A model generated the notes under the pieces. The model saw only the letters and a program-made list of their open reading frames with translations, was not told where the DNA came from and did not search any database. From assembly GCA_001303785.1 (NCBI GenBank), contig LJUJ01000007.1, positions 1-64,000 on the forward strand: 64,000 nucleotides of DNA, read 5' to 3'. The number at the start of each line of letters is the position of its first letter. Within the stretch, counting starts at the first letter, position 1. Below are positions 11,111 to 56,093 of this stretch, one piece after another. The stretch is from Caldifarciminota bacterium SM23_42. GTDB taxonomy: Bacteria; Hydrothermota; Tepidihabitantia; SM23-42. Both the position numbers and the translations under genes were made by a program.

Positions 11111-12649
11111 ATGAAAGCCGAGGTGGACCAAATCATGCAAGGCCTGACCAAAGCGTTCAAGGCTCTGCAAATGTACGGCATGAACCATTCGTCGTTCCGC
11201 AGCTTTTATCTGCCATTCTGCGACAAAATGACTGATTTCTTGAAGAAAAGAAACGAGTTGAATCTGCAAATCGATAAATTCAAGATACTTCACGAAAACC
11301 ACATTGTCTACGAGGAAAGAGAAATGGATCTGAGTATCGCGTTTAAATTGTTCAAAGACGGCATTCGCAGCATCTCATTTATCGGTGGTTTGACGTCTGA
11401 TGAACTACTGTTATTGCTTGACGTGATAAGCCAACCGTCTAAAGATTATGATGTTGCGCTAGGTCTGTGGGAATGCAATTTCTCGCATATCAATTTCTAC
11501 GTGGTCGAGGAAGAAGAGGTTGTGGACTATCGAATTCCCGATGCCCCGGTCGAGTATGTAGATTATGACGAAAAGTTGAAACAACTCATAATGCGTGAAA
11601 AGATCGACATCGACGCGGTCATCATTCCTGACTTGAAGCCTGAAGAGGTAAAACATTTGATGAAGAGTATAACCGACGAAGAGAAAGCTACAATTCTTCC
11701 GCTTGTGGTCAAGACGCTAACTGACTTTCTAAGCACCGAACGTTCGCAGGAAGTTATCGATGGGTTGATCGAGATCCTTGAGAGTTGTGTAAACACAAAA
11801 GATTTTTATAACGCACGACGCATCGCCTACAAGTTGAGGGACTACCCCGAAATTAAATTCATAGATCGCTTTGAGAACGCAACCACTATTATGGGTTTCA
11901 AGGATACGTTGAATGTACCACAGAATGAGTTGTTTAATGAATTTCTGGCGTTCATCGGTTTCTTCGGCACGAAATCAATACCGTATCTCGTCCACCTGAT
12001 GCCGCATACTGAACGAGCTGACCGTCTGACTGCCCTGAGGCAGAGAATTGCGTACATTGCGCAGGACGACCCGGCACCGATAATTGATTTTCTGAAGAAC
12101 GAAGACACGCAATTGATGATTAATGCCATCGCAATAGTCGGCATCATGAAGGCGAGCAAAGCGGTGGAAGCCCTTGAAGCACTGATCGCCCACCCTGATG
12201 AACGGGTAAGGCTCGCGGTGTTAGAATCTTTGGGTAGCCTTAGACAACCAGACCTCGTTGTCAAATTCATGACCGATCCATCCATGGACGCACGTATCAA
12301 AGCCCTGCGCATACTAGGTATGCTAAAATACCCTCAAGTCTATCCGGTGTTGCTCGATAAGATAAAACATAAGAGCTTCCTAGCATTCGATTCTACCGAG
12401 CAGCGCGAGTATTTCAATTATCTCACGGCGAATGCTGACAGTAATCTGGTACGAATTCTGCAAAATCTTTTGTTTAAGCGTAAATGGTTCGGGCGGAAAA
12501 AATATCGTGTGATCAGGCGCTTGGCCGCAATGGCACTGGAACAGATTGGAAGTGAAGAGTCGCTACAGGTACTACGCACTGGTGCACAGAAAAGGAACAA
12601 AGACATACAGGCGGCATGTGAAATAGCACTAAAGGGGAAATCAACATGA
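11111..12649 (+). CDS. HEAT-repeat protein with an N-terminal domain shared with the next gene
   Basis: A 512-residue soluble protein. Residues 1-135 resemble the start of the HD-GYP protein encoded next: both have a helix followed by a short strand pair, 'I.F..G....EL..L.D.I', then HIN(F/V). The region from about 280 to 450 holds HEAT-like helical repeats (MINAIAIVGIMKASKAVEAL, RVRLAVLESLGSLRQPDLV, RIKALRILGMLKYPQVYPVL), which usually form a curved protein-binding scaffold. No signal peptide or enzyme motif is visible. The gene has its own leaderless promoter, and its stop overlaps the next gene's ATG. A signalling or scaffold role paired with the HD-GYP protein is inferred. Confidence 0.7.
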   Translation: MKAEVDQIMQGLTKAFKALQMYGMNHSSFRSFYLPFCDKMTDFLKKRNELNLQIDKFKILHENHIVYEEREMDLSIAFKLFKDGIRSISFIGGLTSDELLLLLDVISQPSKDYDVALGLWECNFSHINFYVVEEEEVVDYRIPDAPVEYVDYDEKLKQLIMREKIDIDAVIIPDLKPEEVKHLMKSITDEEKATILPLVVKTLTDFLSTERSQEVIDGLIEILESCVNTKDFYNARRIAYKLRDYPEIKFIDRFENATTIMGFKDTLNVPQNELFNEFLAFIGFFGTKSIPYLVHLMPHTERADRLTALRQRIAYIAQDDPAPIIDFLKNEDTQLMINAIAIVGIMKASKAVEALEALIAHPDERVRLAVLESLGSLRQPDLVVKFMTDPSMDARIKALRILGMLKYPQVYPVLLDKIKHKSFLAFDSTEQREYFNYLTANADSNLVRILQNLLFKRKWFGRKKYRVIRRLAAMALEQIGSEESLQVLRTGAQKRNKDIQAACEIALKGKST

Positions 12650-53781: not shown

Positions 53782-54906
53782 CTATGATTGGTTGCACGTA
53801 CCCTGATAGATACGCCACTGCTTATACAACTTACCCCTCATCTTCTTGATGCCGTTGTTTACCTCATAATTGTCTTCTAGCGTCCATGATAACTCACCGC
53901 CCCTCATCCCAAGGCGCTGCCCTGCCCTGAACGACTCCAGGTAGAGCAATGATTCCAACCCCTTTTTCTGAAACTGCTTGCGAACCCCCATGATCATTAG
54001 CCTGACTTCTTTGATTTTGCCCTTGTAGTACAGGAACTTGAGCATTTCGATGGGACCGAGTTTACCACTCAATTTCTTCAGCACCTCATTATAATTGGGC
54101 ACGGTCAGAGACACCGCAGCCGGAATATTATTTATCTCGATGATAAAAACGAGTTCGGGAACAATAAGGGGCTTGAGGTTCTTGGCGATATGCTTGAATT
54201 CGGCATCGGTCATGGGTACAAATCCCCAATTGGGACTCCATGCATCGTTATAGACCTCTTGTATCTTCCTCACCTCGTTAGCGAAATCCTTCATGTTCAC
54301 GGTCCGCACCTTGATATCCTGCACTCTACGTCGTATGATGCTAACGAGACGCTCAAGGTATTCAAAAGGCGCATCCTTAGTTTCAATGTAATAAGCATTG
54401 AGATCCTTAGCCTTCACTAGACCAGAGGATTGGGCAAGGTCGTGATAGTATTCAGGGGTGTAGGTCATCATGACAAAAGGCGAAGAAAAATAGCCTTCGA
54501 GGAGAAACCCACATTCCTCATTGGTGGAGGGATTCATCGGACCAATGAACTTATCCATGCCCTTTTTGCGCTGGAATTCCTGCACAGCAGAAAACAAAGC
54601 CCGGGCTGCCTCCGGGTCTTGCTCACACTCAAAGAACCCGAAGTAACCAGTATTCTCCTTCCAGAAGTCAATATAGTTATGGTCAACAATGCCCGCAACG
54701 CGCCCAATCAGGTGTTTATCTCGGAAAGCCAGGTAAAGCTCACGCTCGGAGTGTTGCCAAAAGGGATTCTCATTCTTGTCGAGTAAGTTGTAAACTTCTC
54801 GCTTTAACGGAGGAACCCAATAGCGGTTTTTATCGTATAGTTTATATGGAAATTGAACAAATTGCTTTAATGTATCCTCATTCTCTACCTGAACAATCGA
54901 TACCAT
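53782..54906 (-). CDS. GNAT-superfamily acyltransferase, possible ceramide synthase
   Basis: A 374-residue GNAT-fold protein (conserved starts RYWVPPLKREV near residue 28, NPSTNEECGFLLEGYF near 125, MGVRKQFQKKGLESLLYLES near 308). This large form includes E. coli YghO and the bacterial ceramide synthase of Caulobacter, which joins a fatty acid to a sphinganine. The gene shares one base (TAATG) with the end of the serine palmitoyltransferase-like gene, so a joint sphingolipid role is likely. Sequence alone does not fix the acceptor. Confidence 0.72.
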   Translation of the reverse strand: MVSIVQVENEDTLKQFVQFPYKLYDKNRYWVPPLKREVYNLLDKNENPFWQHSERELYLAFRDKHLIGRVAGIVDHNYIDFWKENTGYFGFFECEQDPEAARALFSAVQEFQRKKGMDKFIGPMNPSTNEECGFLLEGYFSSPFVMMTYTPEYYHDLAQSSGLVKAKDLNAYYIETKDAPFEYLERLVSIIRRRVQDIKVRTVNMKDFANEVRKIQEVYNDAWSPNWGFVPMTDAEFKHIAKNLKPLIVPELVFIIEINNIPAAVSLTVPNYNEVLKKLSGKLGPIEMLKFLYYKGKIKEVRLMIMGVRKQFQKKGLESLLYLESFRAGQRLGMRGGELSWTLEDNYEVNNGIKKMRGKLYKQWRIYQGTCNQS

Positions 54907-56093
54907 TATTTTATCAAACCCGATTCCCTAGCGCAACGCTCGAATACGTCAAGGACTATATCAATATCTTCGTCAGTATGAGTCGCCATGTAGCTGGTTC
55001 TGATCAGCGCCCGGCCAGGAGGTGTTGCCGGAGAAATGACCGGATTTGCAAAGACTCGGTTTGCGTACAGCATCTTCCAGAAGGCGAAGCACATCTCATC
55101 CGGACCGATGATGACTGGCACGACCGGGGTCTCTGACTCACCCACATCAAGACCGATCTTCTTGAAACCTTCCAGAATGCGTCTGGTAATCGCCCAGAGA
55201 CGTTCCCGTCTTTCAGGTTCGTTTCTTATAGCCTCCAAAGAAAATTGCGCACTTGCCACTGAGGCGGGAGTCATGCTGGCTGAAAAAATCAACGCACGCG
55301 CGGTATGCTTGACATGCGTAATAACAGCTTCTTCGGCAACCACAAACCCACCCAGCGAAGCGAACGCCTTGCTGAAAGTACCCATGATAATATCAACGTC
55401 ATCCAAGACACCGAAGTGTTCACATGCACCACGTCCATTTTGACCGAGAACACCGATGCCATGAGCATCATCGACGAGGAGCCGTGTATTGTATTTCTTC
55501 TTCAAACGAACGATCTCGGGAAGATTGGCCAGATCGCCTTCCATGCTGAAGACCCCATCAACAATTATCAGCTTGCCCTTTTCTTCGGGAAGCGACTTGA
55601 GAATCCGCTCTAATTCACCCATATCGTTGTGCGGGTATTTCTTCAAATCAGCAAAGGACAAGCGACAACCATCAATGATCGAGGCATGGTTTTGACGATC
55701 GATGATCAAGATGTCGTCCTTCCCAGCTATCGATGATATGATACCCAGGTTTGTTTGGAACCCAGTCGAAAAGACAATTGCACCACCCTTGTTGAAGAAT
55801 TCTGCAATCTCCTCTTCCAAGCGCACATGTATGTCAAGCGTCCCATTCAGAAATCGAGACCCTGAGCAGGTTGAACCGTATTTCTTCACGGCGTCGATTA
55901 CTGTTTCTTTCATACGCGGATCAGCCGCAAGCCCCAGATAACCGTTCGAGCCAATCATGACAAACTCCTTGCCATCGATGATTACTCGATGGTCCTGCGT
56001 GGATTGAATTGGCGTAAAGAAGGGATATATTCCTAGACTCTGGGCGGATTTTACGGTGTTGACCATTGCCTCACACTTCTTGAATAAGTCCAT
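54906..56093 (-). CDS. Serine palmitoyltransferase-like PLP enzyme
   Basis: A 395-residue alpha-oxoamine synthase. The PLP lysine is in GTFSKAFASLGGF near residue 238. GSNGYLGL near residue 48, KKYGSTCSGSRFLNGTLDIH near 70 and LVDDAHGIGVLG near 204 match serine palmitoyltransferases especially well, including FFTPIQSTQD near the N-terminus. KBL and 8-amino-7-oxononanoate synthase are the alternatives, but no threonine dehydrogenase or biotin genes lie near. It would condense serine with an acyl thioester to 3-keto-sphinganine. A leaderless promoter precedes ATG. Confidence 0.8.
   Translation of the reverse strand: MDLFKKCEAMVNTVKSAQSLGIYPFFTPIQSTQDHRVIIDGKEFVMIGSNGYLGLAADPRMKETVIDAVKKYGSTCSGSRFLNGTLDIHVRLEEEIAEFFNKGGAIVFSTGFQTNLGIISSIAGKDDILIIDRQNHASIIDGCRLSFADLKKYPHNDMGELERILKSLPEEKGKLIIVDGVFSMEGDLANLPEIVRLKKKYNTRLLVDDAHGIGVLGQNGRGACEHFGVLDDVDIIMGTFSKAFASLGGFVVAEEAVITHVKHTARALIFSASMTPASVASAQFSLEAIRNEPERRERLWAITRRILEGFKKIGLDVGESETPVVPVIIGPDEMCFAFWKMLYANRVFANPVISPATPPGRALIRTSYMATHTDEDIDIVLDVFERCARESGLIK

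Follow-up and report, generated by a model that had tools for sequence, protein, structure and literature searches.

A serine palmitoyltransferase-like gene paired with a tandem-GNAT gene in candidate division WOR-3: predicted first steps of a bacterial ceramide pathway

Do two overlapping genes in an uncultured bacterium begin a sphingolipid pathway? The window, by which we mean the whole 64,000-nucleotide stretch of DNA analyzed here, comes from a MAG of candidate division WOR-3 (Caldifarciminota; 2.53 Mb in 59 contigs, 97% complete). The original prediction, made from the letters of the window, was that a serine palmitoyltransferase (SPT)-like enzyme and a GNAT-fold protein of the Caulobacter ceramide synthase type are read from one promoter, in the order of condensation and N-acylation.

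The locus

The features of the locus are the following.

54906-56093, minus strand: serine palmitoyltransferase-like alpha-oxoamine synthase, predicted step 1, 395 aa (open reading frame, family models, PDB match, tree, residues)
53782-54906, minus strand: tandem-GNAT N-acyltransferase of the YghO / bacterial ceramide synthase (bCerS) family, predicted step 2, 374 aa (homology, AlphaFold, genomic link)
54906, minus strand: one-base overlap TAATG of the SPT stop and the GNAT start (sequence)
56129-56102, minus strand: sigma-70-like promoter, TTGACT-16 nt-TATAAT, 11/12 consensus matches, with a putative start of transcription

Both reading frames do share base 54906, as had been claimed, and the same one-base overlap occurs in 6 genomes of the phylum; the two genes may be translationally coupled through it. 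Only 8 nt separate the -10 box from the ATG, which leaves no room for a leader, so the SPT-GNAT message is predicted to be leaderless, in agreement with the single leaderless promoter first proposed. Of 20 relatives in which the SPT start was found, 18 likewise have TTGAC and, a few nt before the start, a -10-like box. This layout is not peculiar to the pair, being found at several other window genes, and leaderless transcripts may be widespread in WOR-3. The adjoining genes are an adenylosuccinate lyase-type gene upstream and, downstream, genes of the isocitrate/isopropylmalate dehydrogenase and aconitase types (named by eye); no other lipid genes were recognized next to the pair. Across the window, TTGACT/TATAAT-like promoters lie 5-8 nt before the start codons at 11111, 23827, 29234(-), 38776(-), 38905, 56093(-) and 59967(-).

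The two enzymes

We compared the first enzyme with solved structures and curated family models. Its top PDB match was the Sphingobacterium SPT (8guh/3a2b, E 1.5e-124, 419 bits), with lower scores for KBL (240 bits) and for the cysteate acyltransferases 28eh/7u7h (232-239 bits). The SPT model was also the highest-scoring in NCBIfam (SerpalmtaseCFB, 537 bits), under its curated cut-off of 640, each such cut-off being a database threshold set for one named subgroup and not a biochemical defining feature. The catalytic residues are all kept (K242, H136, D208, H211, R365, N50). In SPT a Ser precedes the PLP Lys and an Ala stands at +30, where KBL has Gly and Asn. The window enzyme has A272 at the site equivalent to SulA Lys281, where KBLs carry Asn and BioF carries Thr; Lys281 distinguishes SulA, a sulfonolipid enzyme, from SPT (PMC9304779).

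A family tree including KBL and BioF, suggested at the outset as a check, grouped the window enzyme with the SPTs. It falls in a clade with both characterized SPTs (3A2B, 2JG2; UFB 95 / SH-aLRT 82), together with 11 other sequences that are WOR-3 or nested among WOR-3, while the KBL of its own genome and that of E. coli lie outside the SPT clade (99/95). The AU test against an SPT-KBL grouping was marginal (p 0.046), and a tree with WOR-3 SPTs, KBL and BioF on one side was not rejected (p 0.17), so the phylogenetic support is good without being overwhelming. The genome's true KBL is a separate gene (TIGR01822, 636 bits against a cut-off of 493). From these comparisons the window synthase is very probably an SPT-like enzyme, with serine-condensing activity predicted.

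The second protein had no match in Pfam or NCBIfam. A PDB search with the single sequence returned nothing, and a profile search with the family gave weak GNAT matches only. One of its homologues does match Acetyltransf_1 of Pfam, and a fold search with the AlphaFold model (pLDDT 94.6) matched the tandem-GNAT structures 2wpw, 7q3a and 5kf1, which settles the GNAT fold predicted for it. Homology to YghO and other family members runs over the full length (28-37% identity over 97-99% of the query; 32% for E. coli YghO), plasmid-borne homologues occur in Roseomonas, Sphingomonas, Rubrobacter and others, and we built a 45-member alignment of the family. The neighbors of yghO in E. coli are genes for an SPT-type enzyme, an ACP, an epimerase-type reductase and a fatty acyl-AMP ligase (FAAL). 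Because yghO (ECD_02850) and Caulobacter CC_1154 are listed together as genes for the N-acyltransferase of the dihydroceramide pathway (PMC9386255), YghO served, on that authority, as proxy for CC_1154 in the homology comparison. Sequence comparison of this kind supports the assignment of the window protein to the YghO / bacterial ceramide synthase family, as originally suggested, and long-chain-base N-acylation is its predicted activity.

Gene pairing, the candidate reductase and the cell envelope

The named relatives whose GNATs are 63-75% identical are MAGs assigned to candidate division WOR-3 / Ca. Stahlbacteria, which the NCBI taxonomy places in phylum Caldifarciminota. SPT (E <= 1e-100) was present in 79 of 147 WOR-3 genomes, about half of the phylum, and GNAT (E <= 1e-30) in 94. 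Both occurred together in 77 of the 79 SPT genomes (Fisher p 4e-22, relatedness not corrected for); they lie no more than 200 nt apart in 56 of the 79, and in 18 they are either unlinked or split between contigs. We retrieved 25 WOR-3 loci with the GNAT, that of the source genome included, and each has an SPT adjoining it. Over many phyla, 55 of 81 sampled GNAT-family members had an SPT-like gene within 8 kb, and a CerR is often near such pairs. The adjacency of SPT and GNAT is far beyond chance.

No 3-keto reductase had been seen in the window, and a genome search for an SDR-type ceramide reductase had been proposed. That search yielded one candidate on another contig:

C24:59822-60769: CerR-type extended SDR candidate (profile score, tree, synteny)

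With a profile of CerRs linked to SPT/GNAT clusters this protein scored 309 bits, the next SDR of the genome 196. In a tree it nests among the cluster-linked CerRs, apart from HpnA and NDUFA9-like proteins, with moderate support (80-88). The candidate was found in 35 of 41 relatives. It is unlinked to the SPT-GNAT pair, and in most relatives examined it keeps a conserved order with genes for a porin-like outer membrane protein, a NusG-like protein and tryptophan--tRNA ligase (named by eye). The Bacteroides KDSR BT_0972, a short-chain dehydrogenase of ~31 kDa (PMC9278070), was not taken as a CerR reference. By profile, tree and gene order the C24 protein is likely the third enzyme of the ceramide pathway. 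Since the reductase gene need not lie near the pair, surveys that require a full gene cluster would miss such lineages.

Some further observations concern the reductase family. The NusG-like gene that follows the candidate in the source genome (L119:7261-7752, minus strand) does so in most relatives examined as well. One genome that is 94% complete (G006) has a CerR with neither SPT nor GNAT. In the WOR-3 family f4, CerR-like SDR genes form arrays of 4-6 (L193:1068-7822, L194:1129-5553, L195:3911-9332, L196:3222-7317).

A dedicated acyl carrier protein, also expected at the outset, did not turn up: the source genome gave one ACP gene, near a FabG-like gene on C12, so that a dedicated AcpR of the Rhodobacteria type (PMC9386255) is absent from it or was missed. 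An LpxC was found in 38 of 41 relatives, among them every one of the 29 near-complete genomes, and the source genome has LptF/LptG genes, which makes the cell probably a lipid A-bearing diderm. Sphingolipids would then probably add to lipid A and not replace it.

Predicted pathway, alternatives and known systems

Judging by its sequence relationships, the pair very probably codes for the two enzymes that open the known pathway of bacterial ceramide synthesis. The SPT would join L-serine, or possibly alanine, to an acyl thioester and so form a 3-ketosphinganine; the acyl donor is probably either acyl-CoA or acyl-ACP made with the housekeeping ACP. The bCerS-type tandem-GNAT would N-acylate this to 3-keto-ceramide, or acylate a base that had already been reduced, and the CerR-type extended SDR on C24 would reduce the 3-keto group. 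The Caulobacter enzymes are divided between compartments, Spt and bCerS being cytoplasmic and CerR periplasmic (PMC11087976). The products would go to the outer membrane. The family membership, catalytic residues, pairing, co-occurrence and CerR candidate set out above lie in the DNA itself; substrates, products, order of steps, localization and head group we infer. Taken as a whole, with the two genes as steps 1 and 2 and the C24 reductase acting on the 3-keto group, we think this account has a strong chance of being right.

Use of alanine (or glycine) in place of serine, leading to 1-deoxysphingolipids or 1-deoxyceramides, would be a variant of the ceramide explanation and compatible with it. 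WOR-3 members are presumed anaerobes, which counts for this variant, and nothing in the sequence speaks against it, as the residues examined do not separate serine from alanine use. For euxinic waters of the Black Sea, 1-deoxysphingolipids have been reported and ascribed to anaerobic bacteria (PMC11334938). We regard the variant as rather unlikely.

The GNAT might instead N-acylate some other amine and merely be co-transcribed with the SPT. Its substrate cannot be read from sequence, the family occurs in 17 of the 68 WOR-3 genomes that lack this SPT, and some SPT-bearing genomes hold extra copies. Against this stand the near-constant company of SPT and GNAT in WOR-3, the same pairing in many phyla with CerR often near, and the assignment of the Caulobacter and E. 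coli B members to dihydroceramide synthesis (PMC9386255), so that we consider another substrate improbable.

If the PLP enzyme took cysteate and the GNAT N-acylated capnine, the pair would make a capnine-type sulfonolipid. SPT has close kin in the cysteate acyltransferases, and a cysteate synthase paired with a cysteate acyltransferase does occur in related WOR-3 genomes. The window enzyme, however, has Ala and not Lys at the Lys281 site (PMC9304779), on which ground we rejected a sulfonolipid identity for it; it scores 419 bits to SPT against 232 to the solved cysteate acyltransferase, no cysteate synthase adjoins it, and the Lys-bearing WOR-3 paralogues form a separate clade. This makes a sulfonolipid product very improbable.

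Those paralogues deserve description of their own. In family f4 an alpha-oxoamine synthase that carries the Lys281 signature of SulA lies beside a cysteate synthase at both of the two loci examined (L203:4071-6580, minus strand; L206:2688-5321, plus strand), and the Lys-bearing paralogue is also found at L202, L204 and L205. The cysteate synthase scores 519-522 bits with TIGR03844 (cut-off 325), and the top PDB match of the Lys-bearing synthase of L203 is cysteate fatty acyltransferase (E 2.6e-119). We therefore predict a sulfonolipid gene pair outside Bacteroidota; it looks unlike the window enzyme and so provides an internal contrast within the phylum.

Three other loci (L199, L200 and L201, in genomes G012, G007 and G034) have a further alpha-oxoamine synthase paralogue, 39-44% identical to the window SPT. 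SPT is again its highest NCBIfam model, below the cut-off, and no GNAT or CerR match was found near it.

The source genome itself holds, directly after secA on C31 (L123:3828-4946, plus strand), a full-length alpha-oxoamine synthase homologue of 372 aa. It has lost the PLP lysine (Arg instead), the stacking His and the Asp/His pair, cofactor residues whose loss makes it probably catalytically dead. Were it the partner of the window SPT, the two would form a bacterial heteromeric SPT parallel to the eukaryotic LCB1/LCB2 pair; with a shared genome as the sole link, we hold this to be a long shot.

Least credible is that the PLP enzyme is a KBL or BioF of threonine or biotin metabolism and the GNAT an unrelated acetyltransferase: the superfamily is the same and the NCBIfam models for bioF (381 bits) and glycine C-acetyltransferase (365 bits) do respond, both under cut-off, but the separate KBL, the tree and the diagnostic residues led us to reject that identity, and the conserved pairing with the YghO family also argues against it.

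The ceramide pathway is thus our preferred reading, and the sphingolipid interpretation first offered is supported, most of the sequence checks having come out in its favor. The novelty of sphingolipids in a candidate phylum was overstated. The pathway itself is known, and the survey PMC11334938 already infers sphingolipid potential from genes, candidate phyla included, in 40 phyla altogether, 38 of them in the Black Sea. What is new is accordingly modest. We found no paper that links WOR-3 or Stahlbacteria with sphingolipids, although WOR-3 may be among the 38 phyla of that survey; the lineage is not known to make them. What is added is the prediction that much of an uncultured phylum, the SPT being present in 79 of 147 genomes, makes sphingolipids alongside lipid A, with named genes to be tested in a surrogate host. 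Ceramides would also be a possible lipid biomarker for WOR-3.

Among known systems, the genome resembles the pathway of Caulobacter crescentus and E. coli BL21 (spt, aca/bcerS/yghO, epi/cerR, acpR, aasR) in having an SPT, a bCerS-family tandem GNAT and a CerR-type extended SDR. It differs in that only SPT and GNAT are adjacent, with CerR on another contig, and in that no dedicated AcpR was found and no AcpR- or AasR-type gene lies beside the pair; with one ACP gene, the window system departs from the five-gene Caulobacter/Rhodobacteria type. SulA and cysteate fatty acyltransferase share superfamily and chemistry with the window enzyme, which lacks the Lys281 signature that the f4 paralogue has. 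On a plasmid of Rubrobacter radiotolerans an SPT is likewise followed by a GNAT, overlapping by a few bases, and there, unlike here, an NAD(P) oxidoreductase follows directly. The closest solved relative is the SPT of Sphingobacterium multivorum (PDB 3A2B/8GUH), which has the same active-site residues, while the WOR-3 SPTs form a clade of their own.
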